A stretch of 64,000 nucleotides of DNA from Clostridia bacterium (lineage in GTDB: Bacteria > Bacillota > Clostridia > UBA1381), in the NCBI GenBank assembly GCA_017404065.1, contig JAFRDB010000106.1, forward strand, positions 1 through 64,000, read 5' to 3'. The notes under the pieces are model-generated. The model was not told where the DNA came from, ran no database searches, and was given only the letters and a program-made list of their open reading frames with translations. Position numbers and translations under genes: made by a program. Numbering within the stretch: position 1 is the first letter of the stretch; each line of letters begins with the position of its first letter. This document shows, in pieces, positions 24,927-41,960 of this stretch.

Positions 24927-25844
24927 TTACTGTATATCCTCGATATTATACGGTGTGATCTGATAAACAAAGTAGTTGAGCCAGTTTGCAAACAGAAGGT
25001 GCGCGTGCGAACGCCAGCGCACTATTGGCTTTTTTTTCGGGTCATCACCGGCAAAATAGTTCTTTGGTATCGTCGGATGCATTCCCTTTTCAAGATCTCT
25101 GAAATATTCGTTTTTCAGCGTGTCCGCATCGTACTCGCTATGTCCCATCACAAATATCCGTCTGCCTTTTTTTGTTGTTACTATATATACGCCAGCGTCC
25201 TTGGAATCACAGAGTATCTCAAGCTCTGGGACCTTGTCAATGTCCTCCTCCCGCACCTCCGTGTGACGTGAATGCGGAGCGTAAAAATGGCTGTCAAATC
25301 CGCGCACAAGCTTTGCTGTTTTGCGGCGCACTCTGTGGCGGAACACACCGGAACATTTTTGCGGCAGCCCGTACTTTGGTATGCCGTAATGATAATACAG
25401 CCCCGCCTGCGCACCCCAGCATATATGCAATGTTGAGGTCACGTGCGTCTTTGACCATTCCATTATCTCCACAAGTTCATCCCAGTAGTCGACATCTTCA
25501 AATTCAATGTTCTCCACAGGCGCGCCTGTTATTATCATACCGTCATATTTTTGGTGCTTTATATCATCAAAGGTCTTATAAAACGCCGAAAGGTGCTCGT
25601 CAGGTGTGTTCTTTGACACATGCGAGCTCATTTGCAGCAGATCCACCTCAACCTGCAGCGGCGTGTTTGACAGCAACCTCATCAGCTGCGTTTCCGTTTT
25701 TATCTTTTCAGGCATAATATTTACTATCGCTATCCTCAGCGGACGAATGTCCTGTGAAGCAGCGCGTTTTTCTGTCATAACAAAGATATTTTCCTTTGTA
25801 AGCTGCTTTGTTGCCGGAAGCTTATCCGGTATCCTTATAGGCAC
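24927..25844 (-). CDS. metAA: Homoserine O-acetyltransferase (MetA fold), 305 aa
   Basis: Full-length member of the MetA/homoserine transsuccinylase family, which activates homoserine in methionine synthesis. Catalytic Cys142 ([12 protein letters not shown]) and the His/Glu pair ([10 protein letters not shown]) are present, as is [19 protein letters not shown] near the C-terminus. Position 111 is Glu (ITGAPVEN) rather than Gly; in this family Glu111 selects acetyl-CoA, so the product should be O-acetylhomoserine although annotation pipelines often write succinyltransferase. It has its own promoter and no recognisable SAM riboswitch or T-box in the short leader. Confidence 0.93.
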
Positions 25845-25877
25845 AGCAACTACACCTCCCTACCTATTTTATAACCT

Positions 25878-25906
25878 ATTATACTATTATAACCCTCAAA
25901 TGTCAA
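25878..25906 (-). promoter_or_regulatory. Sigma-A promoter of metA
   Basis: On the minus strand TTGACA (25901-25906) and TATAAT (25878-25883), 17 bp apart, giving a leader of about 25-30 nt. Confidence 0.75.
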
Positions 25907-25947
25907 GCTATTTGGCGCACCCTTCCTCTATATCCATATATTTTGCA

Positions 25948-25976
25948 TTTACTTCCAGCAGCAAAAGTGCTATAAT
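25948..25976 (+). promoter_or_regulatory. Sigma-A promoter of the CAP-domain gene
   Basis: TTTACT (25948-25953), 17-bp spacer, TATAAT (25971-25976). Confidence 0.55.
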
Positions 25977-26019
25977 AAAAATGCATCATGAAAGGGTGAA
26001 AAATCGAAGGGAGATAAAA

Positions 26020-26721
26020 ATGAACAAAATCAAAAAAGCGCTTATATGTGGACTCACCGTCTTAACAGTAGCGCCAACGGCATTTGCAAAATGTCCGAAT
26101 ACATACGAAAAAATCGAAATTCAGAAGATAACCTCCGTTCAACAGCTTATTGACTATCTGAATAAACTTTACGGAGCAACAGCAACACCCTCAAGCAGCA
26201 GAAAAACTAAACCGACGCAGGCACCGGCTGCGCCTAAGGTAACCGCAGCGCCAAGAGCAACGGCAGCGCCAAGAGCAACGGCAGCGCCAAGGGCAACGGC
26301 AAAACCCGCGGAGACTTCAATGGTAGAAGTGACAGCCTCCGCTATCGAAAAAGAAGTCTTTGACCTCGTAAACAAAACACGCGCCGGCTACGGACTCCCT
26401 CAGCTGGCATGGGCCAATGATCTTGCGGCGGTCGCACGGGCACATAGCCGAGATATGATAAACCGCAGATTTTTTGATCACACAAATCCGGACGGACTTT
26501 CTCCCTTTGACAGGATGAGGGCTGCCGGAATACGATACAAAACAGCGGCGGAAAATATTGCTTACGGGCAGAGAACACCCGAGGCCGTAATGAATGCATG
26601 GATGAACTCCTCCGGTCATCGTGCCAACATACTGAATGCCAATGTTAAGGAGATCGGCGTGGGTGCTGTAGCTGACTCGTCAGGTACTATCTACTGGACA
26701 CAGGAATTTGTTGCAAGATAA
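26020..26721 (+). CDS. Secreted CAP/SCP-domain protein (YkwD-like), 233 aa
   Basis: The start at ATG 26020 follows AAGGGAG and opens a clean signal peptide (MNKIKKALICGLTVLTV ... AFA); the longer open frame upstream overlaps metA and is ignored. After a short helix comes a linker with repeated APRATA units (about residues 70-92) and a C-terminal CAP domain (about 107-233) with ARAHSRDMINRRFFDHTNPD, AAENIAYGQ and NSSGHRANILN, the usual YkwD motifs. It is a secreted protein of the CAP superfamily, often linked to sporulation or the cell wall in Firmicutes; activity unknown. Confidence 0.9.
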   Translation: MNKIKKALICGLTVLTVAPTAFAKCPNTYEKIEIQKITSVQQLIDYLNKLYGATATPSSSRKTKPTQAPAAPKVTAAPRATAAPRATAAPRATAKPAETSMVEVTASAIEKEVFDLVNKTRAGYGLPQLAWANDLAAVARAHSRDMINRRFFDHTNPDGLSPFDRMRAAGIRYKTAAENIAYGQRTPEAVMNAWMNSSGHRANILNANVKEIGVGAVADSSGTIYWTQEFVAR

Positions 26722-26856: not shown

Positions 26857-27879
26857 TTATTTCATTAGTTCTTTGACTTCTTTATCGATCTTGTCAAGAT
26901 CCTCTTGTGTAGGCTTGAACAAAACCTCTACCGGCTTTGCCGCACGTCGCAGTCCCATTGCGGCAAGAGTCTTATCTATAAGCTTTATCCCGTCTCCCGC
27001 CCAGCCGAACGAGCCAAAAACAAAATAAGGCATTCCGCGTTTGTTAACAGTGTCTATCCGTGTTATTATATCCCATATACTCTGCGGCGCATTACGATTT
27101 ATTGTCCTTGTGCCGACCGCAAAAACCTTTGCCGCATTTATGGCATCCGCCGCTTCTGCTGCGCTGCAGATGTCAGCATCAAACACCTTTGTTTTGTATG
27201 CCGCACCGAGCGACGCTGCCGCCCGTTCTGCAAGCGCCTTTGTATATCCGTATTTGCTTGAATATATAATGACCGCGCGCGGACTGCTACGCTCCGGAGC
27301 TTCCGCCAATATGCGGTATGCCGCAAATGCCGCCTCCGGAGCTTGCGCCTCGCCGCGGAATGGGTATATGAAGCTTATATCCTCATCCGCCAGACGGTCA
27401 AGCGCGGAAAGAACAAATCCGCTGTTCACCGCAAGATAACGGTTATAATATTCTTTAGCGCCCTCCGCTTCGGATGAAAAAGCCTGACCTGAGAACAACA
27501 CTCCATTACAGACCGCCATGACCGTATCTACCCAGTCCAGCCCCGGCGTTACATGAAAGCAAATACCATGATCCTCCATGCCGTCCTTTATAAGCCTTTC
27601 GTTAACAGCGCGATTCACTATCTCTTTTATATTCCTGAGCGCCGCCGGACTGCCGTAAACCTCTATATCCGGCTTGATATCAAGCAACGCATCCATACCG
27701 CCGGTAAATTCCGGCTTTGATGTAAGCAAAATCACGGCGTCACATTCCGTCGCCGTTTTTATGTACTCACCCGCATACTGCTCCGGAACACCGCCGATAA
27801 CAAAGCTTTTGCCGCCGGAATTCAACGTGTAAAAATTATAGCCTCCGGCGCTGTGAGCAGTTATATTATTTGCAGACAA
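26857..27879 (-). CDS. Flavodiiron-like protein lacking the diiron ligands, 340 aa
   Basis: The C-terminal half (about 200-340) is a flavodoxin domain (AVIIYSSKYGYTKALAERAA, then VFAVGTRTINRNAPQSIWDI, and YFVFGSFGWAGDGIKL). The N-terminal half aligns with the metallo-beta-lactamase domain of flavodiiron (FprA) proteins but has lost its metal ligands: the HxExDH motif reads TSKPEFTGG, the next His is Asp in TPGLDWVDT, the bridging Asp is Gln in FSGQAFSSE, and the last His is replaced in IYPFRGEA. It therefore cannot reduce O2 or NO in the usual way and may be an electron-transfer or scaffold protein. Its first 14 bp overlap prmA. Confidence 0.82.
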   Translation of the reverse strand: MSANNITAHSAGGYNFYTLNSGGKSFVIGGVPEQYAGEYIKTATECDAVILLTSKPEFTGGMDALLDIKPDIEVYGSPAALRNIKEIVNRAVNERLIKDGMEDHGICFHVTPGLDWVDTVMAVCNGVLFSGQAFSSEAEGAKEYYNRYLAVNSGFVLSALDRLADEDISFIYPFRGEAQAPEAAFAAYRILAEAPERSSPRAVIIYSSKYGYTKALAERAAASLGAAYKTKVFDADICSAAEAADAINAAKVFAVGTRTINRNAPQSIWDIITRIDTVNKRGMPYFVFGSFGWAGDGIKLIDKTLAAMGLRRAAKPVEVLFKPTQEDLDKIDKEVKELMK

Positions 27880-28831
27880 AGGACCACCAATCCTTTCTGC
27901 GTTTACTTTCCACTACCGTAAAGCCCTCTGCCTCAAGCGCAGCCTTAACCTCATCCTGCCGTCCGTCAATTATACCGGACGTAATGAACACTCCGCCGTC
28001 GGCCATGTATTCCCGCGCAGCGGGAGCAAGTCCGATGATAACATCCGCTACTATATTTGCTGCAACTACTTCATATTTATTCTTTGAGATAACCGCCTTA
28101 ACAGCCGGATCGGTAAGAACATTACCGCTTATAACGGTATACACTTCACGCGGCACGTTATTCATATCCGCATTCATGTATGCGGTATCTATGCAGTTGG
28201 GATCAATATCGACCGCCAATGCCTCTTTCGCGCCCAATAATAGTGACACTACCGAAAGGATACCGCTGCCGCAGCCAAGATCAAGCATCCTGCAACCCGG
28301 TTTTATGTGCTTTTCAAGCCGTTCCAGACATAGCTGTGTTGTCTCATGCGATCCTGTACCAAAGCTCATGCCCGGATTAATGTTAAATACTACACGGTCT
28401 GTTGGCTCGCTTATTTCCTCCCATTCAGGCTTGACCAAAAGTTTTTCACCGATCTCGATCGGGTGAAAATATTTCTTCCAAGCGTTTGCCCAGTCCTCCA
28501 TCCTCGTTCCTTCGGTCTCTACCGCAAGTCTGCCGAAAACATCTGCCCCATCCATGCCGCGAAGCTCGGCCATACTGCCGTTTATCGCCGCAAGCAGCTC
28601 TCTTCCGGGAATATCATCACTGACATACGCTATAACTCGCGTCTCACCCGACATGCGTTTTTCAAGATCCTCATCAACATAATCCCAAAACTCTCTTGTC
28701 TGCTCTAAGTGATCTCTGAACTCGCTCTCGTCCTCTATCTCAAGTCCGGTTATACCAAGCTGCATCAGCCTGCCGCTGACCGGCTCTATCCCGGCATTTG
28801 TCGTATATATTGTTACTTTTATCCAATCCAT
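27866..28831 (-). CDS. prmA: Ribosomal protein L11 methyltransferase PrmA, 321 aa
   Basis: ATG 28831 follows CGGAGTGAT; nine earlier in-frame codons lack a ribosome site. The N-terminal substrate-recognition domain (MDWIKVTIYTTNAGIEPVS) and the methyltransferase core are present: MSFGTGSHETTQLCL, SAM loop MLDLGCGSGILSVVSLLLGA and the NPPY-like motif VAANIVADVI. PrmA trimethylates L11 on the ribosome. The end of the gene overlaps the flavodiiron-like gene, so the two share a transcript. Confidence 0.95.
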   Translation of the reverse strand: MDWIKVTIYTTNAGIEPVSGRLMQLGITGLEIEDESEFRDHLEQTREFWDYVDEDLEKRMSGETRVIAYVSDDIPGRELLAAINGSMAELRGMDGADVFGRLAVETEGTRMEDWANAWKKYFHPIEIGEKLLVKPEWEEISEPTDRVVFNINPGMSFGTGSHETTQLCLERLEKHIKPGCRMLDLGCGSGILSVVSLLLGAKEALAVDIDPNCIDTAYMNADMNNVPREVYTVISGNVLTDPAVKAVISKNKYEVVAANIVADVIIGLAPAAREYMADGGVFITSGIIDGRQDEVKAALEAEGFTVVESKRRKDWWSFVCK

Positions 28832-29147
28832 ATTTATCACTCCGATTTGATAAATCAAATATGCTCTGCAAGTTACCGCTTATATAATGATGATCAACAC
28901 AACATTCTGTGTTATTAACATACCGCAGCAAATCTCGAATGATATTAGTATAACATAATTTTGTTACAATTGCAATATTTTTATCTAAAAAGCTATATTA
29001 ATTAATATAAGCAGACTTATCTCGAAAAGAGCTAAATTGATAGAGCTCATTTCTCCTTATATCCTTTGCTTTTTCTTTCTTTGAAAATAAATCGAATATT
29101 CCTATAACTGACCTCCTTGTATTATAAACATCTATGATATTCAACTT
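28832..29147. other. Intergenic region upstream of prmA
   Basis: About 315 bp without a gene. It carries the prmA promoter (28947-28975) and AT-rich sequence down to the end of the GH26-like gene. Confidence 0.5.
28947..28975 (-). promoter_or_regulatory. Sigma-A promoter of prmA
   Basis: On the minus strand TTGCAA (28970-28975) and TATACT (28947-28952), 17 bp apart, leader of about 110 nt. Confidence 0.6.
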
Positions 29148-31727
29148 TTATTTCTCTTTATATCTGTACAGTATTCGTGTCTCAACATCTCTTGTAAAAC
29201 TATAATCAGGCTCTCTATCGGAAAACTCCGACCAATCTCCCCACTGCCAATATATATACTTACGATAAATTTTCCTATATCTGTATTCTGTATAGTCACC
29301 GCCGCTTGTTTCTACAAGGTACCACCTCCAACAGGAGTTAGAACAACGGTGTTTTTCGCCATTAATATAGTGTGTATAATCACTGTCACTATCCTCTGAA
29401 TACGGCAGCGGGCTGTCAAACCAGCCAAGATCATGATATATGGCTTCATCGCAAAATTTATAATTACTCGTTCTGTATCTGTGAGAGGAATCTGAAATAT
29501 CCCCCGTGCACCAATGCGCATAATGATAGCTAACAGGTGATGACTGCGTTCGTGTTTGCACTTCGGTACCTTCGTTCTCGCTTATATAGCTGCTCTGCCA
29601 TTCGCTCCAGTCGCCATAGGATGTTTCTGTCCGAACGTAATTCCCCGCGAGTGAATACCTGTTTGATAATTCAAAGTATTCTTTATCTCTGTAGCGATAC
29701 TGTTCCTTTTTTTCAATATAATACAGATCCGCATCAATATTTTCCGGCAGTTTTTTCATCCATTCAGACCACTTAAAAACCTTCGGCGTTATATCTACGG
29801 TATATGTTCTGTTGTCCCATTCCACATCACAGCCCAGTCCCTCTGCTATTGCCCTGACCGGCACAAGCGTCCGATCCGAAAGAACAAACGACGGCGCATC
29901 AAGATCTATGACCTTGCTATTGACATACATTTTTTTGCTTCCGACTGTGATCTTCACAGTTCTGTCGCCGCGTTTTCCGCTCGCTGTTTTTGAATTGCCG
30001 TCCCAGTTTACATCAGCGCCGAGAGCCTCAAATATTTTCCGCATCGGAACCATAGTCCTGTCATTATATATTATAGGCTCCTGGTCGAACGATACCGTTT
30101 TTCCGGATATGTTTACCTTGACGCCTTTCCCCGCTTCGCCTATGTTTACAGTTGAATCCCTTGTCAATGTCTTTCCGCTTTCAAACAATGCGACACAGCT
30201 CAGGCTGTGCTTACCGAAATACCCAGCGGCATCAATATATGTCGTGAACGGTATCTCGTTTGACATCCCTAAATATTTTCCGTCAATGTAATATGCAACA
30301 CTTTTCAAAGTATCATTATAACTATGAGCATAGCACGAAATTGAGAAAACGCTTTCCAGATTTATTCCGTCCGTTATCTCACGATAGCACAGATCGGTAC
30401 TGTTATTAAAGCTGTCTTGGACAAACCGCCCTGTCTTTGTGAGCCTCAGGTACTCATTGCAAAGCGTGTTATTTGACGAAAGTCTGAAATCATTTGTTTC
30501 TCCGTCAACGTAATAATCAAAATACGCTATCAACTTGATTTGCGGATAAACCATAGGCAAATATGAATAATACTCCTTGAGTCTTCTGAGCGCAAATTCT
30601 GTGGTGTTCTCATTCTGGGTTTTTACATAGTGTCCGCAGCCTGATTCTGAAATCATTATTGGTTTCCTGCTGCCGTATTTATCAATTATATCTTTGACTG
30701 CTATGACTGGCTCTGAGTTTATTCCGGTTTTAAATACAATCTCATTCTCTTCCGAGCTGCTTTTGCTGCCCAAAAAATACTTTTGGGCATACAGTGACAT
30801 ACCTACCCAGTCCACATACGCATCACCCGGATAATAATCATCTATATCAATGTCCCATCTCGAAACCTGATTCGGGCTCCACACCATCGCCACATTTGAA
30901 TTCCTGCTTTTGAAATATTCAGACACATATCTAAACGCAGCTTTATAGCTTTCCGGATCGGTCAGATTTTTGTCCCATATATCAAACTCTGCCGCAAAGC
31001 GAAGAAATACCGGCACATCCGAATATTTATCGAAAAGCTCTGAAATCTCCTTTAGATAAGAACCCATTTTTTTAATATCAGATATGTCTTTACCTTGATT
31101 AGGACAGTTAAGTGCAAATTCTACAGCACAGCCTGATGACCGCGCGGATGATACCATGCTCTTGTTATATGAAAGCAACGTCTGTCCCAGTTCTTGATAT
31201 ATAAGTATCATTGATTCATTATCAAGCTTGCTTCGTATACCTCCGTTAGAGCATACACCAAATAAGACTCCGTTTTGTCTCTCGTTCTTTGCTCCATAGT
31301 ATGGTGATTTGCCGCCCTCTGTGTACATTCTTATATCCGAAGCATACTGTGCAGTGCGTGCTTTTGCCGAAACAAGATAATCATAATATTTATAACTGTT
31401 TGCTGAGCCGCAATCATATAGAGCCTTAAAGGTCACTGCGCTGTTATCGTAGTCTCCCATAGCTGCGTATGCCTTACCAACAGCGTTATAGCGAGTAACT
31501 AGAATATCTCTTTTCTCGTCACTGTCCTCGACATTGCGCATAAGTGCTATCAATTCATTTCCGTATTTGATAATACTCGGGTTGTCATCAGCCTTTAGTG
31601 CCGCTTCATACTTGGTATTCACCGTCCAGAAGGAATTTGGCAACGCATAGACGAGATTGATGTTAACTGAAAAGGCGCAACTTATTAATGCTGTTAGTAA
31701 AACCCGTTTAAACTTTCCATTTTTCAA
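29148..31727 (-). CDS. Secreted GH26-like glycosidase with stalk domains, 859 aa
   Basis: A signal peptide and a helical TPR-like segment (to about residue 110) are followed by a glycosidase barrel (about 150-440) resembling family 26 beta-mannanases: PVFLRFAAEFDIWD (acid/base Glu), VAMVWSPNQVSRWDI, DYYPGDAYVDWVGMSLYA and PIMISESGCGHY (nucleophile Glu). An Ig-like segment, a copper-amine-oxidase-N stalk module (about 545-655: NDRTMVPMRKIFEALGADV, SDRTLVPVRAIAEGLGCDV) and a Trp/Tyr-rich C-terminal region of about 190 residues follow. It should act on a polysaccharide outside the cell. Its start overlaps the zinc-ribbon gene by 4 bp. Confidence 0.82.
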   Translation of the reverse strand: MKNGKFKRVLLTALISCAFSVNINLVYALPNSFWTVNTKYEAALKADDNPSIIKYGNELIALMRNVEDSDEKRDILVTRYNAVGKAYAAMGDYDNSAVTFKALYDCGSANSYKYYDYLVSAKARTAQYASDIRMYTEGGKSPYYGAKNERQNGVLFGVCSNGGIRSKLDNESMILIYQELGQTLLSYNKSMVSSARSSGCAVEFALNCPNQGKDISDIKKMGSYLKEISELFDKYSDVPVFLRFAAEFDIWDKNLTDPESYKAAFRYVSEYFKSRNSNVAMVWSPNQVSRWDIDIDDYYPGDAYVDWVGMSLYAQKYFLGSKSSSEENEIVFKTGINSEPVIAVKDIIDKYGSRKPIMISESGCGHYVKTQNENTTEFALRRLKEYYSYLPMVYPQIKLIAYFDYYVDGETNDFRLSSNNTLCNEYLRLTKTGRFVQDSFNNSTDLCYREITDGINLESVFSISCYAHSYNDTLKSVAYYIDGKYLGMSNEIPFTTYIDAAGYFGKHSLSCVALFESGKTLTRDSTVNIGEAGKGVKVNISGKTVSFDQEPIIYNDRTMVPMRKIFEALGADVNWDGNSKTASGKRGDRTVKITVGSKKMYVNSKVIDLDAPSFVLSDRTLVPVRAIAEGLGCDVEWDNRTYTVDITPKVFKWSEWMKKLPENIDADLYYIEKKEQYRYRDKEYFELSNRYSLAGNYVRTETSYGDWSEWQSSYISENEGTEVQTRTQSSPVSYHYAHWCTGDISDSSHRYRTSNYKFCDEAIYHDLGWFDSPLPYSEDSDSDYTHYINGEKHRCSNSCWRWYLVETSGGDYTEYRYRKIYRKYIYWQWGDWSEFSDREPDYSFTRDVETRILYRYKEK

Positions 31728-32644
31728 TAATCAGACTCTACCTTTCTAATGCTCTCATTAATTGATGCAATCTCTTGATGATAATTTTGATCTAATGATG
31801 TTAATTGATTCTCTATAGCTGATATTTCTTGATTTATTCCTTTTGTTTTTTTATCAGCTATTTTATCAAATATTATACCTATTATAGAACAGACTATCCA
31901 CACTCCAAAGCCAAGCACTGTCATGCTAAGAACAAAACATAAGACACCATCAAATCCACCCAGCGCCACAGCGCCTGTGATAGAAAAGCCAAATATTGCA
32001 ATTAGCAATAATATAATAATAGTTATAATAATAACTTCCCCAGGTCTCTTTATTGATTTTTCTGTTTCTATTAATTCATTCCTGCGTTTTTCAAGGATGG
32101 CCTTTTGCGCATTGAATTCATTTGTCATTTGGTTGATTTTCTGGTTGCCGGTACTTATAATACTATCAAGCTTATTCTTGACAGCGTTGTAGTATGGTTT
32201 GTATTGGGTATTCATGCTGTTTTTTTCATTTTCGTCAGCAACAGTGCATGCCTTTCTATAGTAGTCTTCTATAACCGATAACACCCTTCTACTTATATTA
32301 ATATCTGTAAAATTCTTGCTTCTTACTTTAATAAGCCCCCACCAACCGCGATAATCATATGGACATTCCAAAGTTAGCTTTCCGAAAACGCCATCTGCTG
32401 AATCATAATCACCCATCATAATAAATGTCTCACCTGATTTTACTCTACTGTCTCTTGAACTATCATCGTTCACATTAACAACATCGGCATGCAAATTTCC
32501 GATGTTGGTTATGGTATTGTAATTATTTATTGCATTTTCCGTAATAAAAGGCGTATGACAATACGGACACACAGCTGCTTCCTGACTTGCATCCACTTCT
32601 AATCTTGCACCGCATTGCGTGCACAAAGCCGGTATTAATGGCAT
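31724..32644 (-). CDS. Zinc-ribbon membrane protein, 306 aa
   Basis: An N-terminal zinc ribbon (CTQCGARLEV ... CPYCHTPF) is followed by a polar region with a TPR-like part (SGETFIMMGDYDSADGVFGK), a coiled coil (about 160-195), two membrane helices (about 203-260) and a second coiled coil at the C-terminus. The ATGA overlap with the secreted glycosidase gene shows coupled translation, which is odd for a protein of cytoplasmic-facing type and a secreted enzyme. Function unknown; a membrane-associated sensor or assembly factor is possible. The tract is AT-rich compared with neighbouring core genes. Confidence 0.7.
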   Translation of the reverse strand: MPLIPALCTQCGARLEVDASQEAAVCPYCHTPFITENAINNYNTITNIGNLHADVVNVNDDSSRDSRVKSGETFIMMGDYDSADGVFGKLTLECPYDYRGWWGLIKVRSKNFTDINISRRVLSVIEDYYRKACTVADENEKNSMNTQYKPYYNAVKNKLDSIISTGNQKINQMTNEFNAQKAILEKRRNELIETEKSIKRPGEVIIITIIILLLIAIFGFSITGAVALGGFDGVLCFVLSMTVLGFGVWIVCSIIGIIFDKIADKKTKGINQEISAIENQLTSLDQNYHQEIASINESIRKVESDY

Positions 32645-32674
32645 GATTCCAACCCCTCTTTCTTCATATATTTT

Positions 32675-33838
32675 TCACAAAGCTATTGCCGAAAAACCTG
32701 ACTGGTCTTCCGGCAATAACTCATCGAATGCAGTGTTTGATTTCTTTTTATACTGCACATCCCAACCATATTCCTCATACATATTAATTACATCCTGTAG
32801 TGTTTGGACTTGCTCTTCTTCTTTTAGATATTTTTCAGTGTATTTTTCAATAAGAATATTATTACAGTAATAATACTCTGCCCAATCTTGCTTCATCCCA
32901 AACACATTTGTACCTGAGCTAAAATCATTAAGCTCATTGCAATAGCCCGACGCATCAAAATTATCACCAAAAATTATGAATTCTCTGCTATCTGTCAGTA
33001 TATCGTCATCATTTGCAGTGTACACACGGATTGTTACCGGATATAATCCATCCATATCCAAACCATCATCACGTGAAAAGCAAAGCTGATTTCCATGTAC
33101 AAGAACACCATTAGGCATATACATTTCAGGCAAATCCACATGATCTATATAGCCTCCGGACTCAGTGTGGTTATAGCTGTCTGTTTTGCTGTATATCTGC
33201 ACTGCCCTATTGTCATTATCCCACTCAACAATACAGTCAAAAGCCTCAGCTATAGCTCTAACCGGCACCAAAGTTCTGTCATCCTTTATAAACGGCGGAG
33301 AGTCAATAACTATTATTTCACCATTACGATACATCTCATTATCACCTATATAAAGGACAATGCGGGTATTATTTAAATATGCATCTACTGCCTGAGCCTC
33401 CGGTATCCAATCCACCTCAGCACCGAGAGCCTCAAATATTGCTCTTAACGGAACCATTGTTCTGTCATTTACGATTACCGGCGGAACATCAAACTTAATC
33501 TGTACATCATCAACGAAAACTATTATATCATCGCTTTCAGCATAATAACTGTACGTGTTATTTTCATTGTTTTGCTGTATATATGAATCCGATTTTGAAA
33601 CGGACTCCTCCTCTTTCTCACCGTAATATTCAGATCCATTTATCGTTTCATCATAAGACGGATCATAGCCCTCACCATAGCTGTCGTATTGGCTTGCGGT
33701 TTCATCACTTGTATCTTCTCGCTCATCGTATTTTGAATCATACGAATAACTCATGTCTGCATCGCTCGAAAACTCATCTGCAGACACCGTTGTCGACAGC
33801 ACTAAGAAGGCAAAAAGCGCAATAAATACTTTTTTCAT
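32675..33838 (-). CDS. Secreted stalk-domain (CuAO-N) protein, 387 aa
   Basis: A signal peptide (to about residue 20) is followed by a low-complexity Ser/Asp/Tyr/Glu-rich segment (about 22-100), a copper-amine-oxidase-N stalk domain (about 105-220: NDRTMVPLRAIFEALGAEV and DDRTLVPVRAIAEAFDC) and an unassigned C-terminal domain with VDLPEMYMPNGVLVHGNQLC. No catalytic residues of amine oxidase are present; the stalk is a structural surface module in Clostridia. It lies between the zinc-ribbon protein and the NlpC/P60 hydrolase, all on the same strand. Confidence 0.83.
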   Translation of the reverse strand: MKKVFIALFAFLVLSTTVSADEFSSDADMSYSYDSKYDEREDTSDETASQYDSYGEGYDPSYDETINGSEYYGEKEEESVSKSDSYIQQNNENNTYSYYAESDDIIVFVDDVQIKFDVPPVIVNDRTMVPLRAIFEALGAEVDWIPEAQAVDAYLNNTRIVLYIGDNEMYRNGEIIVIDSPPFIKDDRTLVPVRAIAEAFDCIVEWDNDNRAVQIYSKTDSYNHTESGGYIDHVDLPEMYMPNGVLVHGNQLCFSRDDGLDMDGLYPVTIRVYTANDDDILTDSREFIIFGDNFDASGYCNELNDFSSGTNVFGMKQDWAEYYYCNNILIEKYTEKYLKEEEQVQTLQDVINMYEEYGWDVQYKKKSNTAFDELLPEDQSGFSAIAL

Positions 33839-33849
33839 GCAACCACCTT

Positions 33850-35493
33850 TTATTGTAGATTTATTTGTTTGCCGGAAGCATATCCTGTGATTCCATTATA
33901 ATTTACATAGTACCAACCGTTGCTTGTTTTGTCAGGATATACAGTACATTGTGCACCCTGATTCATGCTTCCCACTATTTCATAGCTCGTACCCGGGCCA
34001 CTCCTGATACTTAAATTATCCCAGCTTGCAGGTATATTTACAACGCCAATTCTTGTGCTTGCTGACGAATTACTTGAACCCGAGTTTGAACCAAGCTTTA
34101 TCTGACCACCCGAAGCATATCCCCAAATTTCGTTATAATTTACATAATACCAACCATTGCTTGCTTTATCAGGATATACGGTACATTGTGCACCCTGATT
34201 CATACTTCCCACTATTTCATAGCTCGTACCCGGACCGCTCCTGATACTTAAATTATCCCAGCTTGCAGGTATATTTACAGTTCCCGTAACTGCCGTCCCG
34301 TTTGCATTACCTTGACTGACAGGCTTTGCATTAACCGAAAAATCCTTCTTTGCTGTTGCAACACGACCCGATGTATCTGTTGCCTCCACTATCATAGTAT
34401 AACTGCCGATCGACAGGTTATTGAATACAAGATCATTATTTAAATTTGCTGCCTTTATATCCATATATGTGGAATTTGGCTTATCGGTAGATGATAATAC
34501 GGTTTTACCGCTTGAGTTTTTTACATACCCTTTAACAACAGAAATCTTATAGTTTGATGTAACCGAGCCTCTTAATCCATACGAACTTCCGACATCTAAA
34601 GATACAGGATACTTTTCAAGGTTTATAGAAAGCGTCGAATCTGATGATTGCTTTTTTTCAGACTTCGATTTGTTGACCGTAAATTTTTTAGTAACGCTTA
34701 TTTTTTTACCTGAGCCGTCCACCGCTTCAATATATAATTTGTATTCTCCCGCTGATAAGCTGTTGAACACCAGATTATTATTTAGATTTGCCGATTTTAT
34801 ATTCAATGATGTTGAATTTGGTGTATCCGTTGAGCTTTGAATAACACTGTTACCCTTCTTGATCTGTCCTGTTACTTTTTTAATATTATAATTCGATGTG
34901 ATCGTACCACGCAGCCCATAATTGCTGCCCACCTTTATAGACTGCGGATAATCGGTAAGATCAATAGAAAGCGTGGAAGCAGCTTTCTTATGTGTAGCTT
35001 TTACTTGATTTGTATTCGTATCAAAATAAGAATCTTTAATTCTAATGATAGCAATTATATCTCCAATCCACGCCGATGTAGCTGGACACTCTAATACACC
35101 ATACTTACTATTAAGCGCATTTACAACATTTCCGTTTCCGGAATATAAAGACACATGACCTGGAGTATAGATAATATCACCTATCATAGCATTATTTATA
35201 TCTGTGCCCTCGTTTGTTGCAATGCCATCTGATACTAAATTGATCATATCCGCTCTTCTACCCCATAAATTGATATCGAATTTTTCATATACTCTACATA
35301 TAAAACCAGAACAATCAACTCCGGTGGCAAGGTCTGTCCCGCCCCAAACATAAGGCACTTTACCTATATAACTTCTTGCACACTCTATCACTTCATCTCT
35401 TGTTCCGGACGCATGCACTTGATTAATTACACCTATCGTACATAACATTGCAATGAGCACAGCTATTGAACTAATCTTTTTTAATATTTTCAT
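33850..35493 (-). CDS. Secreted NlpC/P60 endopeptidase with SH3b repeats, 547 aa
   Basis: After a signal peptide (1-29) comes an NlpC/P60 domain (about 30-160) with catalytic Cys61 (GVDCSGFICRVYE) and His113 (TPGHVSLYSG), which cleaves peptide bonds in peptidoglycan stems. Two related beta-sandwich repeats follow (about 170-290 and 285-395, both with GLRGT/S-TSNYKI and DGSG or DTSG endings), then two nearly identical bacterial SH3 domains (about 405-470 and 480-547; NLSIRSGPGTSYEIVGSMNQ) that bind cell wall. The SH3 pair is almost a direct DNA duplication, suggesting recent expansion. The order, with the catalytic domain first, is unusual but known. Confidence 0.92.
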   Translation of the reverse strand: MKILKKISSIAVLIAMLCTIGVINQVHASGTRDEVIECARSYIGKVPYVWGGTDLATGVDCSGFICRVYEKFDINLWGRRADMINLVSDGIATNEGTDINNAMIGDIIYTPGHVSLYSGNGNVVNALNSKYGVLECPATSAWIGDIIAIIRIKDSYFDTNTNQVKATHKKAASTLSIDLTDYPQSIKVGSNYGLRGTITSNYNIKKVTGQIKKGNSVIQSSTDTPNSTSLNIKSANLNNNLVFNSLSAGEYKLYIEAVDGSGKKISVTKKFTVNKSKSEKKQSSDSTLSINLEKYPVSLDVGSSYGLRGSVTSNYKISVVKGYVKNSSGKTVLSSTDKPNSTYMDIKAANLNNDLVFNNLSIGSYTMIVEATDTSGRVATAKKDFSVNAKPVSQGNANGTAVTGTVNIPASWDNLSIRSGPGTSYEIVGSMNQGAQCTVYPDKASNGWYYVNYNEIWGYASGGQIKLGSNSGSSNSSASTRIGVVNIPASWDNLSIRSGPGTSYEIVGSMNQGAQCTVYPDKTSNGWYYVNYNGITGYASGKQINLQ

Positions 35494-35509
35494 ACCAATA
35501 TAACTCCAT

Positions 35510-36385
35510 TCACTTTATCAACGAAATCAAATACTCGCACCTTTTCTTTGTATATTCCGCTCCTTCAATGTTCGATGCCATCGGAGCCATCGAACCGCCG
35601 ACATGTTCTGCAGCTGCCGCCGCCATTGCCGCTTCCTTCTTTTGTATCCAATTCTTTTCGTCTGCCTGCAGGCTGCTGAACTCTGCGCCTGGTAGCGTGT
35701 TCTTTAAATACTGATAAATTTCATTGAGCAAAGCATCCCACTTTTGATATACGTCATAAGTCGACTGATTAATTTCCATTTGCGTCATCGCTGTTGCGGC
35801 ACGATCTTTTTCGTATGTTTCAAGTTCACTCATTCTTCTTTTGTATTCATCCCGTAGACTGTTTGAAGCAATCATTCCCGAATCATTCCCGGATATTGCT
35901 CCGCCATTATTGTCGGAACTGTCAAAAAAGAAATCATCGACCGATCGATACATGCCAGGTCCGGGCTGAGCAGCGATCTCTCCTGTGCTGCTGAACGTAG
36001 CTGTGATATTGATATGCTCTTTTCCGTTTTCATCATTGAATTCATATAAGATCGTCAACCCTCTCGCTTGTGAATCAGAATCATATCCCTCAGCAGTGTT
36101 TTCTGATGTAAAGGTTATATAATCCGTACTTCCGTCACTATAATTTATTTTTGCCTCATTCTCTCCAACCGCAGTTATTTCAACCTGCATAATATCTTTT
36201 CGTTCATAATCGGTAAGCGATGTGTAGTACCATGTTCCCGTATGTTCGCTGAAATACACATTCTCTGTGGTTTCTGTTGGAATGATAGCATCAATGTTGT
36301 TATCATCATTGTTGTGTGATCCACTATTGCACGCTGACAATACTATTGCCAGCAGAACGACTGATATCGTTAAAGTTTTTTTCAT
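35510..36385 (-). CDS. Lipoprotein with LprI-type C-terminal domain, 291 aa
   Basis: The lipobox is LSAC (Cys about 19). Residues about 45-145 form a beta-rich domain (TGTWYYTSLTDYERKDIMQV) and residues about 175-291 are helical with LETYEKDRAATAMTQMEINQ, WDALLNEIYQYLKNTLPG and LQADEKNWIQKKEAAMAA, matching the LprI-like (DUF1311) domain found in lysozyme inhibitors and many Gram-positive lipoproteins. It should sit on the outer membrane face. The start is preceded by AAAGGAGGTAG and by the promoter region that is duplicated at 37035-37189. Confidence 0.83.
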   Translation of the reverse strand: MKKTLTISVVLLAIVLSACNSGSHNNDDNNIDAIIPTETTENVYFSEHTGTWYYTSLTDYERKDIMQVEITAVGENEAKINYSDGSTDYITFTSENTAEGYDSDSQARGLTILYEFNDENGKEHINITATFSSTGEIAAQPGPGMYRSVDDFFFDSSDNNGGAISGNDSGMIASNSLRDEYKRRMSELETYEKDRAATAMTQMEINQSTYDVYQKWDALLNEIYQYLKNTLPGAEFSSLQADEKNWIQKKEAAMAAAAAEHVGGSMAPMASNIEGAEYTKKRCEYLISLIK

Positions 36386-36396
36386 GGATACACTAC

Positions 36397-36551
36397 CTCC
36401 TTTGCTCTGTTTTTGTTCTGTATGGTAGTATAATACCTTAATTCAGAGTGTCTTTGGTCGCCTATGAAGCGACATTTTATTCTCTCCTTTTAAACCATTC
36501 AGCTGAATCCATATGATAATCGTTGCTTGTTATATAATCTCTGCGCAGATG
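36397..36551 (-). repeat. 155-bp duplicated segment, copy A
   Basis: Nearly identical to 37035-37189 (offset 638 bp, no gaps, few substitutions). It spans the last 25 codons of one small lipoprotein gene, its stop and hairpin (GTCGC-GCGAC), and the promoter and ribosome site of the next gene. Confidence 0.85.
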
Positions 36552-37024
36552 CAGTGCATATTGACTTAATTCCGTCCCCGACACAGCATCTGCAACATAT
36601 GTATTTAATGCTGGTTCTGCTCCGTGATATCCAAGCAGAATGACCCATTTCTTCGCGCCATATTCATCGGAATACGGTTCGCTTTCAGCCTGGGACGAAC
36701 TTAACAGTTTCATATTTATCGTTCTTCCGTCCTCTTTGAATATAAAATGTGTGTCGTCTACTGCCGTAAGCTCGGCCTCCATTTGCGCATCAAACCCATC
36801 TGTGCCAAAACCGTACCACTTTCCGATATAATCGCTTACTTCACCTCTGATTTGTCTATAACCTCCTGTGTTGCCTCTACTTCTTGCGTCTCACTCTCAT
36901 CCTCTAACTTGTCCATAAATGTATTAAAATCATCCGTCCAATCATCATGCTTAGATTCGGTATTGCCGCACGAAGCAAGGCACAAAACCGATATGAGCAT
37001 TGTTATCATTAATACTTTTTTCAT
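36477..37024 (-). pseudogene. Frameshifted small lipoprotein gene
   Basis: The first part (37024-36836) encodes a lipoprotein start with lipobox LASC and an acidic segment, ending early at DKSEVK. In another frame, from about 36846 on, the reading continues without a break as EVSDYIGKWYGFGTDGFDAQ and then through MEAELTAV to a C-terminus (ALNTYV ... HMDSAEWFKRRE) shared with the paralogue at 37115-37396. A one-base insertion or two-base loss near 36837-36846 would restore a single protein of about 180 residues. Either the gene is broken or the base call there is wrong; a programmed frameshift is less likely. Confidence 0.72.
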
Positions 37025-37034
37025 TATGCTTTAT

Positions 37035-37189
37035 CTCCTTTGCTCTGTTTTTGTTCTGTATGGTAGTATTATACCTTAATTCAGAGTGTCTTTGGTCGCC
37101 TATGAAGCGACATTTTATTCTCTCCTTTTAAACCACTCAGCTGAATCCATATGATAATCGTTGCTTGTTATATAATCTCTGCGCAGATG
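37035..37189 (-). repeat. 155-bp duplicated segment, copy B
   Basis: Second copy of 36397-36551. The pair delimits a 638-bp tandem duplication unit that created the two small lipoprotein genes. Confidence 0.85.
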
Positions 37190-37396
37190 AAGCGAGTATT
37201 GGCTTACTTCAACATCTGTTTTTGCTTCTGATACATAAGTATTCAAAGCCGCTTCCGTTCCATGAAATCCAAATAAAATAACCAATTTATTTGTACCGTA
37301 TAAATCGTCATTTTTTGATACAGTGTTTCCACAGGATACAAGATTTAAAGTCGATACAAGCAATATTGCTAAAAATCGTTCACGCTTTACCTTCAT
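37115..37396 (-). CDS. Small lipoprotein, internally shortened paralogue, 93 aa
   Basis: A signal peptide with lipobox VSCG (LNLVSCGNTVSKNDD) runs directly into the C-terminal domain YGTNKLVILFGFHGTEAALN ... HMDSAEWFKRRE. Compared with the frameshifted neighbour, the acidic linker and the DYIGKWYGF to KKW region, about 100 residues, are missing, so this is an internal-deletion derivative that stayed in frame. It may still give a small membrane-anchored product. Family unknown. Confidence 0.65.
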   Translation of the reverse strand: MKVKRERFLAILLVSTLNLVSCGNTVSKNDDLYGTNKLVILFGFHGTEAALNTYVSEAKTDVEVSQYSLHLRRDYITSNDYHMDSAEWFKRRE

Positions 37397-37400
37397 TCCT

Positions 37401-38354
37401 TCAATTTACTCTCTCGCACTTATTGTCATTATAATATGATTTCGCACCCGGTGTGCCGTAATATAATGAATTGGTGTATTCTATCACAGCAAGTTTAAAC
37501 CTCGTTAAAACAGTTTCTCCTGAAATTATTGAACTGACATTCTTATCGCTTCCGGTTACTTCTATAACATCTGTTACAAATGCTTTGGAACTCTGTAAGG
37601 TAGTTTTGTCACCTGTTTGAACATTAACAGTCTCTTCATGGTACGGAATCGTGATAATATCCTGATATCCTCTTTCGCCGCCGCTCCACACTCCGACACC
37701 ATCCATTGTGTATTTATACTGCAAATCAACAGTTTGATTTTCTTTGTCTACACTTATGATTTTTACCATAATATCCAAGTACTGTGCCAGATAAAGTCCA
37801 TCGATATTTTTCCATTCACCTATAAAATTTGCCAGAGAAAAATCATCCGTATTCGTTTTATTAGCATTTTCTGCCGTTACGATATCGCCCGTTACATATA
37901 CGCTTCTTGTCGCATTGTCCCAATCAATCACCATATCCCAAAGATTGCAAAATGCTCTCAGCGGTATATAGAAATTTCCGTTATAAATAGTGGCGGGAAC
38001 ATCAAGAGAAATAGTTTTTATGTCGCCATCTACACCGGTTCTGGTAACAGTTTCGCTGTCATTAACAAAAGTACACTCCGTTACTCCATCACTAAACGTA
38101 GCTTTCTTCTCATCCGGGTTCCATTTAATATTTTCTTCGGCAATGCCCATAGCCTCGAATATAGGCCTAAGTGGAACAAGCGTTCTATCATTCATGATAA
38201 ATGGTTTGTTCTCACTATTTGCATAAACATTGGTGCCATTCAAATAAACTGTAAGTTCCTCCGAAAAACTCTTGATGTTTACCGCTCCTGCGGATATCCC
38301 GCTTGTAATCATTATAGCCGATATAGCTACCGTAAAAAAATTTTTTGCTTTCAT
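37401..38354 (-). CDS. Secreted stalk-domain (CuAO-N) protein, 317 aa
   Basis: ATG 38354 is chosen for its GGGAGG site and the signal peptide that follows (MKAKNFFTVAISAIMITSGI). The stalk domain (about 30-150) has NDRTLVPLRPIFEAMGIAEE and, in the second half, FYIPLRAFCNLWDMVIDWD. The C-terminal half (about 165-317) is beta-rich with NFIGEWKNIDGLYLAQYLDI, similar in type to the IGKW segment of the neighbouring lipoproteins. No enzyme motif is present. It ends 4 bp before the small lipoprotein gene and is probably first in that transcript. Confidence 0.83.
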   Translation of the reverse strand: MKAKNFFTVAISAIMITSGISAGAVNIKSFSEELTVYLNGTNVYANSENKPFIMNDRTLVPLRPIFEAMGIAEENIKWNPDEKKATFSDGVTECTFVNDSETVTRTGVDGDIKTISLDVPATIYNGNFYIPLRAFCNLWDMVIDWDNATRSVYVTGDIVTAENANKTNTDDFSLANFIGEWKNIDGLYLAQYLDIMVKIISVDKENQTVDLQYKYTMDGVGVWSGGERGYQDIITIPYHEETVNVQTGDKTTLQSSKAFVTDVIEVTGSDKNVSSIISGETVLTRFKLAVIEYTNSLYYGTPGAKSYYNDNKCERVN

Positions 38355-38508
38355 CTTAGCAACCTCCCTATAAAAATGAATATTTTTCAAGTACAGCTCG
38401 CTTAACTTGCTGTATTTTCATTTATTATATCATGTTATTGAATAAATTGCAAGTATTTTGTGATATAATTTCCTAAAAAGAATGTTTAGAAAAGTTGAGG
38501 TGACTTAT

Positions 38509-38868
38509 TTGTTTGATTTGGGACTGACAATAAAAACGCTAAGAAAAAAAAATCATTTAACACAAAAAAATCTGGCAAAGAGACTTAACATCTCTGAAAC
38601 ATCTGTAAGCAAATATGAAAGCAACACCGTTACTCCGCCACTGGATGTGCTCCGATCCATGTCAACAGTTTTTCATATCTCCATGGATGAGATGTTTGGT
38701 ACACAGCCTGCAGGCACCATTTCTCTCCACGGACTTTCTGAAAACCAAAAAGAAATAATAAAACAGCTTGCATACATTTTTAATTCATACGGCAAAAATC
38801 CAACTCCCTTTGAGGTGTCAGAGTACTACTCCATACTCGGCCGCATTGTTGCAGAAATGTTCAAATAA
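38509..38868 (+). CDS. XRE-family regulator, 119 aa
   Basis: Helix-turn-helix at the N-terminus (IKTLRKKNHLTQKNLAKRLN, then ETSVSKYESNT) and a C-terminal helical segment of about 50 residues (LSENQKEIIKQLAYIFNSYG). The TTG start at 38509 is preferred: GAGGTG lies 6 bp before it, whereas ATG 38482 has no ribosome site and lies only about 13 bp from a TATAAT box (38464-38469). It is divergent from the surface-protein cluster and could regulate it; the C-terminal part is not a known sensor. Confidence 0.78.
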   Translation: MFDLGLTIKTLRKKNHLTQKNLAKRLNISETSVSKYESNTVTPPLDVLRSMSTVFHISMDEMFGTQPAGTISLHGLSENQKEIIKQLAYIFNSYGKNPTPFEVSEYYSILGRIVAEMFK

Positions 38869-38881
38869 TCCATGCAATGAC

Positions 38882-38925
38882 TAAAAGCGCATTCATGCGG
38901 CGACGCCACACAAAACGCGCTTTTA
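38882..38925. terminator. Bidirectional terminator between XRE gene and rpoD
   Basis: Perfect 9-bp stem TAAAAGCGC (38882-38890) and GCGCTTTTA (38917-38925), 26-nt loop, with T-rich sequence on the plus side and A-rich on the other. Confidence 0.65.
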
Positions 38926-38966
38926 TTTGTTTTAATCACTCAGCTTAAAATAACTTTATCAACTTA

Positions 38967-40103
38967 TCATACATCCAAAAAGTCCTTCAGCTTCTTTGAT
39001 CGGCTCGGGTGACGAAGCTTTCTGAGCGCCTTTGCCTCGATCTGGCGAATACGCTCACGCGTCACCTTAAACTCCTTGCCGACCTCCTCCAGCGTGCGCT
39101 GCCGACCGTCTATCAGTCCAAAGCGAAGCTTGAGCACCTTTGCTTCCCGGTCTGTAAGCGTTTTCAATACCTCTACAAGCTGCTCCTTAAGCAACACAGA
39201 GCTTGCCGCCTCGCTTGGCGCGGGCGCGTCATCATCGGGGATAAAGTCACCCAAATGGCTGTCCTCCTCCTCGCCTATCGGGGTTTCAAGCGAGACAGGC
39301 TCCTGTGATATCTTAGATATCTCCCTAACCTTTTCAACGCTCATATTGAGTCCCTTTGCAAGCTCCTCAGGCGTTGGCTCACGGCCAAGCTCCTGAACAA
39401 GCTGACGCGAAACACGCACCAGCTTATTTATAGTCTCTACCATGTGCACCGGTATCCTGATCGTTCTTGCCTGATCTGCTATGGCGCGGGTTATCGCCTG
39501 TCTTATCCACCATGTTGCATAGGTCGAGAATTTGTAGCCCTTTGTATAATCGAATTTATCCACTGCCCTTATAAGACCAAGGTTTCCCTCCTGAATAAGG
39601 TCAAGGAACAGCATACCGCGACCGACATAACGCTTTGCAATGCTGACAACCAGTCGGAGGTTAGCCTCGGCAAGCTTTTTCTTCGCTTCCTCATCACCCT
39701 CGCTCATGCGCCGCGCCAGATCCGTTTCCTCTTCAGCAGTAAGAAGATCTACCTTACCTATCTCTTTGAGATACATCTTTACGTGGTCATCGACGCTCAC
39801 GCCCTCCGGCACAGACAGATCCTCAAGCTCTTCCTTGGTGACCTCGATCTCCTCAAGCTCCTTTTCTATATCCTCTACGAGCTCTATATTCTCGCTCTCA
39901 AACCGATCATAGACCTTTTCCATCTCCTCCGGAGTTACTTCAAAGCCCTCAAGCGCGGAATTTATCTCCCGAAACGAGATATAGCCGCGTTTCTTGCCGC
40001 GCTCAAGCAGAGCACGCTTGATAGCTCGCTTCTTTTCAAGAGTCACCTTGTACGCTTCAAGCTCCTCTGCTGTCATATTTGAAAGGTTCTTTTCTGTATT
40101 CAT
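38967..40103 (-). CDS. rpoD: Primary sigma factor RpoD (SigA), 378 aa
   Basis: All core regions of a housekeeping sigma-70 factor are present: region 1.2 ([20 protein letters not shown]), region 2 ([59 protein letters not shown]), region 3 ([20 protein letters not shown]) and region 4 ([13 protein letters not shown]-type with [20 protein letters not shown]). The N-terminal 100 residues form a short acidic region 1.1. It directs the many TTGACA-TATAAT promoters seen in this window. It follows dnaG after 39 bp, the conserved macromolecular-synthesis order. Confidence 0.98.
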
Positions 40104-40142: not shown

Positions 40143-41960
40143 TTATTTGTTTGTTGTTTTTGTCCTCTGCTGTTCGGTAAGCTCTGCTTTTTTCCTGAGT
40201 AGCTCACCTATTTTTTTCGCGTCCTGCTCTGCACTGATCTGCGCTTCCAGTCTGTCTTGTTTTATTTTATATATAAGATCATACAGTGTTTTTTCGTTAT
40301 CGGTGTACTCCTCTCGGTTAAAGAACACCTCTCCCGCCTTATTTTCACTCTCCGCATCTCCCGAAAAACGGTTTATTACGGCTGCGGGATCGACCTCTTC
40401 GCCTTTTTTCGCAGCACTGTACATATATTCAGCCATATCTTTATATACCTTGTCCGAAAATTCCTCCGGACTTATTATCTCTGCCGCCTCCAGCGTCAGT
40501 CTCTTTGACGCGGACATAAGTGAAAGCACCCGTTTTTCAGCCTCAAGCGTTGCGCTCGACACCCGCTCCGCCGGAGACCTGCCGCTGTTTACCCGCATCA
40601 GCTCTCGTTTTTTATAGGCTTCCTTTGTTTGTGCCGGTGAACGGCGCGGCATCTTACTTTTTATTTCCTTGTATTTACCGACTATCGACTGCTCCGATAT
40701 GCCGGTTTCGGCTGCGATTTTTTTTATGTACGCCTCGACCTCGACCGGATCACCGAGGCTTGCGAGTATCCGCGCCGCCGCTTCAACAAACCTTATCTTG
40801 CCGTCTGTATCGTTTATATCATACTCGCGCTTTATAAGCGAGAGCCTGAATTCGGTTGAAGGCATAGCCTTGTCTATTGCTTTGCGGAAGCCCTGAACTC
40901 CGTATTTGGTTATAAACTCATCCGGATCCTTTGCACCGGTTATGCGTATCACACGCGCCTTGCCGCCGACAGAGGCTATGATATCTATTGCCCTGAGTGC
41001 AGCCTTTGTGCCTGCCTCATCCATATCGTAGCATATAAGTATCTCATTCGCATACCGAAGCATCAGCTTTGCCTGGTTTTCAGTGATCGCCGTACCGAGC
41101 GTCGCAACACAGTTGGATATCCCGGCCTGATGCACCGTTATAACGTCCATATACCCCTCGCATAGGATGATATCCTTTTCATTGGAGTTTTTTGCAAGAT
41201 TTAACGCAAACAGATTGCTGCCCTTGTCAAACACAGGTGTTTCCGGTGAATTCAGATATTTTGCAAGCCTCACTCCGTTCGGAAGCTTTTCGCTGCCCAT
41301 TATTCTCCCGCCGAAACCGATTATCTTGCCTCGCGCATTTATTATAGGGAACATTACTCTGTCACGGAACTTATCTACCGCCTTCTCATTTCGAGATACC
41401 GCAAGCCCTGCGGAAACAATATCCGCCTCACTGTACCCCTTTGCCTTAAGGCTGTTTATCAGTCCTGCGGAATCTCCGGTCGCATAGCCGAGTCCGAATT
41501 TTGTCATGGTCTTTTTGCTCAGCCTGCGTGCGGCAAAATACTCCCTTCCGGCTCTGCCCTTTTCGGGGTCATTTAAGCAGTCATAAAAATAACGCGCGGC
41601 AAGCTTATTCATTTCGTAAATACGTTCCTTTTGCTGTGCCGCCGCGCCTCCTGCGCGCGTCCCGTTTTCCGGTATAGCTATCCCTGCCCGATCCGCCATC
41701 TGCTTTATTGCATCCTGAAAATCCAGACCCTCAAGCCGCATAACGAGCTGTACAAAGTTACCGCTCGCGCCGCAGCCGAAGCAATGAAAAAGCTGCTTGT
41801 CCCTATCTATATTAAATGACGGTGTCTTTTCATTGTGAAAGGGACAGCACGCCATATAGTTTCTCCCGCGCTTTTTTAATGTCATAAACGATGACGCGTA
41901 ATCCACAATATCATTTGCCATGTTTATTTCATTAAAAAGCTCGTCAGATATATATGCCAC
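40143..41960 (-). CDS. dnaG: DNA primase DnaG, 605 aa
   Basis: The N-terminal CHC2 zinc domain has ligands Cys39, His42, Cys60 and Cys63 (CCPFHNEKTPSF, FHCFGCGASGNF). The RNA polymerase/Toprim core is present (NSNEKDIILCEGYMDVITVH, ILICYDMDEAGTKAALRAID), and the C-terminal 150 residues form the helicase-binding domain. The enzyme lays down RNA primers at the replication fork together with DnaB. It is co-transcribed with rpoD. Confidence 0.97.
   Translation of the reverse strand: MAYISDELFNEINMANDIVDYASSFMTLKKRGRNYMACCPFHNEKTPSFNIDRDKQLFHCFGCGASGNFVQLVMRLEGLDFQDAIKQMADRAGIAIPENGTRAGGAAAQQKERIYEMNKLAARYFYDCLNDPEKGRAGREYFAARRLSKKTMTKFGLGYATGDSAGLINSLKAKGYSEADIVSAGLAVSRNEKAVDKFRDRVMFPIINARGKIIGFGGRIMGSEKLPNGVRLAKYLNSPETPVFDKGSNLFALNLAKNSNEKDIILCEGYMDVITVHQAGISNCVATLGTAITENQAKLMLRYANEILICYDMDEAGTKAALRAIDIIASVGGKARVIRITGAKDPDEFITKYGVQGFRKAIDKAMPSTEFRLSLIKREYDINDTDGKIRFVEAAARILASLGDPVEVEAYIKKIAAETGISEQSIVGKYKEIKSKMPRRSPAQTKEAYKKRELMRVNSGRSPAERVSSATLEAEKRVLSLMSASKRLTLEAAEIISPEEFSDKVYKDMAEYMYSAAKKGEEVDPAAVINRFSGDAESENKAGEVFFNREEYTDNEKTLYDLIYKIKQDRLEAQISAEQDAKKIGELLRKKAELTEQQRTKTTNK

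Follow-up and report, generated by a model that had tools for sequence, protein, structure and literature searches.

A prmA-linked flavodiiron-like protein without diiron ligands in a family of Clostridia

A flavodiiron-like protein encoded directly downstream of prmA has lost every ligand of the diiron site and has kept its flavodoxin domain, and comparable losses run through most of the family to which the bacterium belongs. The gene lies at positions 26857-27879 on the minus strand of the window, by which we mean the whole stretch of 64,000 nucleotides analysed here. The initial annotation saw in it a single pseudoenzyme derived from an oxygen reductase, and this understates the case: the process is graded and family-wide and involves gene fusion to prmA.

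Domain layout and diiron positions of the window protein

The gene is one open frame of 340 codons, starting at a TTG within the last codons of prmA and overlapping the 3' end of that gene by 14 nt. The same kind of start and overlap was seen again at other loci of the window's genus. The product of 340 aa consists of a metallo-beta-lactamase-like domain (approximately residues 1-195; 27295-27879, minus strand), which in a profile alignment to solved flavodiiron proteins (FDPs) is without metal ligands and without the N-terminal hairpin, followed by a flavodoxin domain (approximately residues 200-334; 26878-27282, minus strand), and this order is homologous to that of solved FDPs. In Pfam only Flavodoxin_1 passes (residues 204-330), and the best FDP model of NCBIfam gives 78 bits against a cut-off of 635; the N-terminal half is too changed to be recognised by Pfam on its own. 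A phmmer search of the PDB returned FDPs and one flavodoxin, with some of the FDP matches spanning both domains (1vme over residues 13-299, 1ycf over 40-330). Among the matches were also D. gigas ROO (1e5d) and the entries 6h0c/6h0d, titled putative diflavin flavoprotein A 3, which we take to be Flv1. Descent from an FDP, as had been proposed, is borne out by a profile from 25 relatives that aligns over its full length with 6etb (E. coli flavorubredoxin, E 1.2e-64), 1ycf and 1e5d. The AlphaFold model of the window protein alone had a mean pLDDT of 39.6.

In D. gigas-type numbering, the ligand positions of the window protein have changed as H79 to T53, E81 to K55, D83 to E57, H84 to F58, H147 to D115, D166 to Q132 and H227 to R175. 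Aligned with ligand-complete relatives, residues 53-58 (TSKPEF; 27706-27723) replace the H-x-E-x-D-H motif, residue 115 (27535-27537) has Asp for His147 as LHWPD becomes LDWVD, residue 132 (27484-27486) has Gln for the bridging Asp166, and residue 175 (27355-27357) has Arg for His227 as SHG or LHG becomes PFRG, all on the minus strand. An acidic residue replaces an acidic one at D83 only. Counted over six positions (H, E, D, H, D, H, with H84 set aside), the window protein retains 0 of 6, in agreement with the claim that all metal ligands of the lactamase fold are substituted. In five alignments, all with E. coli flavorubredoxin, the motifs that hold the ligands of this solved protein coincide with the columns used for our ligand calls.

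Ligands elsewhere in the domain were also looked for. The only histidines of the window protein are residues 9, 104 and 109, none of which falls on a ligand position. The N-terminal domain has no His or Cys that is kept in at least 12 of the 13 genus members, and the acidic residues conserved there across the genus are only four (E57, E94, D99 and D118). The 12 other full-length genus members retain 0 or 1 of the six ligands. Because the lactamase domain of the genus has no conserved His or Cys, the diiron site has not simply moved, and a replacement His/Cys site was ruled out for this genus. The term pseudoenzyme used in the initial annotation holds in the sense that the diiron site for O2/NO reduction has been lost, and in that sense only, as FMN chemistry may remain.

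The flavodoxin domain, which had been described as intact, is indeed so: the Flavodoxin_1 match is accompanied by retained FMN loops (YSSKYGYT, GTRTINRNA and FGSFGWAGD), which suggest that the window protein carries FMN. Across 46 ligand-poor proteins of the family, residues G211, T213, T259, F288, G289, W293 and G295 are 96-100% kept. In one sub-lineage (G069, G072, G075, G078 and G081) the flavodoxin phosphate loop is altered, which makes the case for FMN weaker there.

Ligand loss and selection across the family

A prmA-linked FDP-type gene is carried by 51 of the 70 genomes of the window's family, a count that excludes a fragment at a contig edge in G013, and no such gene was found in the other 19. 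All six ligands are left in five of the linked proteins (G019, G029, G065, G066 and G073), four in 4, three in 13, two in 9, one in 6 and none in 14, and ligand loss in the linked proteins, of which 46 have at least two ligands lost, evidently exceeds chance. Outside the family the six ligands were intact in 25 of 25 relatives examined, these being five from the other families of the order and the 20 best-ranked among the 55 non-family genomes that gave a match in a class sample. The second-type FDPs were likewise intact (9/9 examined), including that of the window genome itself (L047). The loss of ligands usually goes together with loss of an N-terminal hairpin of 18 alignment columns: each of the 39 intact proteins has it in full, and most or all of it is absent from the ligand-poor ones (at most nine columns filled in 42 of 46; the exceptions are G028 with 12 columns, G083 and G084 with 16 and G069 with 17).

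Some individual proteins are of separate interest. The linked protein of G028 (L029 1429-2586) is an unusual intermediate compared to its neighbours, as D83, H84 and H147 are lost and H79, E81, D166 and H227 kept. In G081 (L141 1652-2818) and G075 (L143 1832-3007) the residues at the ligand columns are H, E, H, C, P, C, and extra Cys residues occur at the later motifs; from these residues, it is possible that this sub-lineage has another metal site. A relative in G002 (L072 3851-4702) has 284 aa only; part of the lactamase-like domain, reaching as far as the flavodoxin domain, is missing, and the FMN loops remain.

In trees built with the ligand columns omitted, the linked proteins form one clade, with support of 97/100 on 51 rows and an SH-aLRT of 100 on the 48 rows left when three long ones (L026_G002, L016_G021 and L173_G066) are dropped. 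The window protein, which is encoded directly downstream of prmA (a fusion to prmA was counted as equivalent), falls inside this clade. Of the five intact members, G019, G065 and G029 are the earliest branches of the clade. As a single clade of all ligand-poor proteins was not rejected by the AU test (p 0.475), we make no case for a first loss that occurred more than once; the first-loss changes on the tree number three with all rows and one without the three long rows. Later erosion of single ligands recurs, with 11 changes at D83, seven at E81, six at D166, five at H147, four each at H79 and H227 and one at H84. A Bacteroidetes locus (L034) matching residues 297-340 only was excluded from the trees, and a single weak relative from a scan of viral contigs (L177), similar in the flavodoxin part, was not used.

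Of 13 close pairs, 12 had usable dS, and their dN/dS ranged over 0.059-0.211 for the lactamase-like domain and 0.073-0.284 for the flavodoxin domain. These values are rough, as one pair was dropped for saturated dS, several others exceeded 1.5 in dS and a loose pattern was used to place the border between the domains. Purifying selection thus acts on both domains, and pseudogene decay was rejected on these values. Mean identity within the genus is 49% for the lactamase-like and 53% for the flavodoxin domain (78 pairs, 13 rows).

Association with prmA and possible function

The gene directly upstream (27866-28858, minus strand) encodes PrmA, the ribosomal protein L11 methyltransferase (Pfam PrmA 270 bits; TIGR00406 217.5 bits, cut-off 183). 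Among the 51 genomes, measured between stop-to-stop frames, the two genes overlap or lie within 100 nt on the same strand in 46, the window included, and are 290 nt apart in one and fused in two; two cases at contig edges were left unjudged. In G023 the fusion is a protein of 700 aa with Pfam PrmA (10-327), ODP lactamase (350-507) and Flavodoxin_1 (557-684), and G086 has a like in-frame fusion of 634 aa, cut by the contig edge. The linkers of the two fusions have diverged. Both genomes belong to genus g9, of which the third member, G036, keeps separate genes. The 14-nt overlap on the same strand and the in-frame fusions in two relatives suggest that the gene is co-transcribed with prmA. The tight coupling to prmA that had been proposed is therefore upheld by overlap, by family-wide adjacency and by fusion. 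The link was seen within the family only: the class sample comprised 216 genomes, of which 55 non-family ones had an FDP match (E <= 1e-70) and prmA coordinates were available for 44; in none of these 44 were the two genes on one contig and within 100 kb of each other, and prmA and the FDP gene were adjacent or fused in all seven family members of the sample.

The usual order in the family is dnaG-rpoD-prmA-FDP, followed in several genomes by rsmE (presumptive names, assigned from sequence). Seven family genomes without the FDP gene have rsmE directly after prmA, which suggests that the FDP gene was inserted between these two or lost from there, and which shows that PrmA works without an FDP partner. 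In the window, the rpoD-type sigma factor gene (38967-40103, minus strand), which gene order in relatives identifies as the ancestral upstream neighbour of prmA, lies about 10 kb off, with the dnaG primase gene upstream of it (40143-41960, minus strand) as in relatives. Since rpoD adjoins prmA in related genomes, the stretch of approximately 10 kb at 28859-38966 that parts them arose by insertion or rearrangement in this genome, and prmA and the FDP gene have remained together. This stretch encodes a copper-amine-oxidase-N domain, a GH26-like protein and one that by eye resembles NlpC/P60. On the other side, an open frame on the plus strand (25606-26721), convergent with the FDP gene, looks by eye like one for a secreted CAP-type protein with a ATAAPRATAAPR repeat linker.

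Fusion, overlap and co-movement together point to a function joint with PrmA, the kept FMN loops to flavin as the working part, and the emptied pocket to the end of O2/NO reduction. The window protein may thus, with near-even probability in our judgement, be an FMN-carrying partner subunit of PrmA, likely acting as a redox switch or dimer scaffold. Judging from gene orders, an ordinary two-domain FDP gene would have been inserted between prmA and rsmE in a dnaG-rpoD-prmA-rsmE operon. O2/NO reduction would have been left to the second, ligand-intact FDP of the same genome, freeing the linked copy from that task, and the linked copy would then have lost the diiron site and the hairpin while both of its domains were kept under selection. 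The protein would be made alongside PrmA by translational coupling, and as a single polypeptide in two species. Its most likely job would be to tie L11 methylation to the flavin redox state, or to hold PrmA dimeric through the FDP dimer; a physical complex with PrmA, and redox control, are what we infer from the genes. However, rpoD and prmA are kept together about as well without an obvious joint function, so that gene order alone proves little, the fusion is confined to a genus where G036 has separate genes, and 19 of the 70 family genomes are without the gene.

The protein could also act by itself as a flavodoxin-like electron carrier or flavin reductase, for which the prmA operon would give steady expression only; this explanation is possible though less than probable. 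Flavodoxins are common electron donors of radical-SAM and other enzymes, no part of the protein is better kept than the FMN loops, and dnaG and rpoD, which neighbour it in the operon, are unrelated in function. However, the lactamase-like domain, needless in a simple carrier, is equally strongly selected, and neither the overlap with prmA nor two in-frame PrmA fusions would be expected. A more specific form of the PrmA partnership, which we consider rather doubtful, is a redox-controlled methyltransferase, in which PrmA and the diiron-less FDP would form a complex, in some species as one chain, and the flavin redox state would set L11 methylation, tuning translation or the stringent response to redox conditions. 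On this doubtful reading the cell, or O2 in traces, would determine the flavin state, an O2-reducing ancestor having turned into a redox sensor.

The window protein might instead pair, as a ligand-poor subunit, with the canonical FDP that its genome also encodes, in the manner proposed for the heterodimers of cyanobacterial Flv1/Flv3 and Flv2/Flv4. Such a canonical FDP with 6/6 ligands is present (L047), and FDP heterodimers with one ligand-poor partner are described in PMC4390876. Yet this FDP belongs to a far clade, shows 23% identity in an alignment that covers part of the length, and is encoded on another contig, and the partner in the fusions is PrmA and not another FDP, which makes this improbable. 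More improbable still is a pocket remade into another metal or ligand site and not emptied: the Cys and His at the ligand columns of G075 and G081 and the four acidic residues conserved in the window's genus would fit it, but that genus has no conserved His or Cys in the domain, and sister species have unlike residues at several of the ligand columns. A functionless decaying gene is strongly disfavoured and hardly credible, for although ligand loss is progressive, G002 has a shortened copy and the gene is missing from over a quarter of the family, the family copies keep long open frames, dN/dS is well below 1 in both domains and the FMN-loop residues are nearly invariant.

The methylation of L11 by PrmA has long been puzzling, as it is widely conserved and yet knockout phenotypes are weak. 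A dedicated flavoprotein partner of PrmA, if true, would open a way to learn under which conditions and to what end L11 gets methylated, and the link with prmA hints at a tie between the redox state of the cell and ribosome modification. In addition, one clade ranging from intact to fully emptied diiron sites offers natural intermediates for studying how an enzyme may turn into a partner protein.

Comparison with known systems

Ligand-less FDPs are already known from Flv1 and Flv2. A published FDP partner, fusion or flavoprotein/redox link of PrmA was not found in a search of a literature collection with few subscription journals. For the enzymes of C. difficile, PMC6033852 gives the seven residues that serve as ligands, together with the FDP class scheme. 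With class A FDPs (D. gigas ROO 1e5d, the nitric oxide reductase 1ycf and the core of E. coli flavorubredoxin) the window protein shares the two-domain order, homology over the full length and the FMN loops; it differs from them in being without the diiron ligands and the N-terminal hairpin and in having 340 residues, compared to approximately 400.

In terms of ligand loss the window protein is like the cyanobacterial Flv1 and Flv2 of class C, FDPs without canonical ligands for which heterodimers have been proposed, according to PMC4390876. Because the near relatives outside the family are intact, the ligand loss described here looks independent of that in Flv1/Flv2. Flv1 and Flv2 carry an added flavin-reductase domain, whereas the window protein ends after the flavodoxin domain. 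Furthermore, the partner of Flv1/Flv2 is a second FDP gene, whereas the ligand-complete FDP of the window genome is on another contig and the direct neighbour is prmA, whose product is part of the same polypeptide in G023 and G086.
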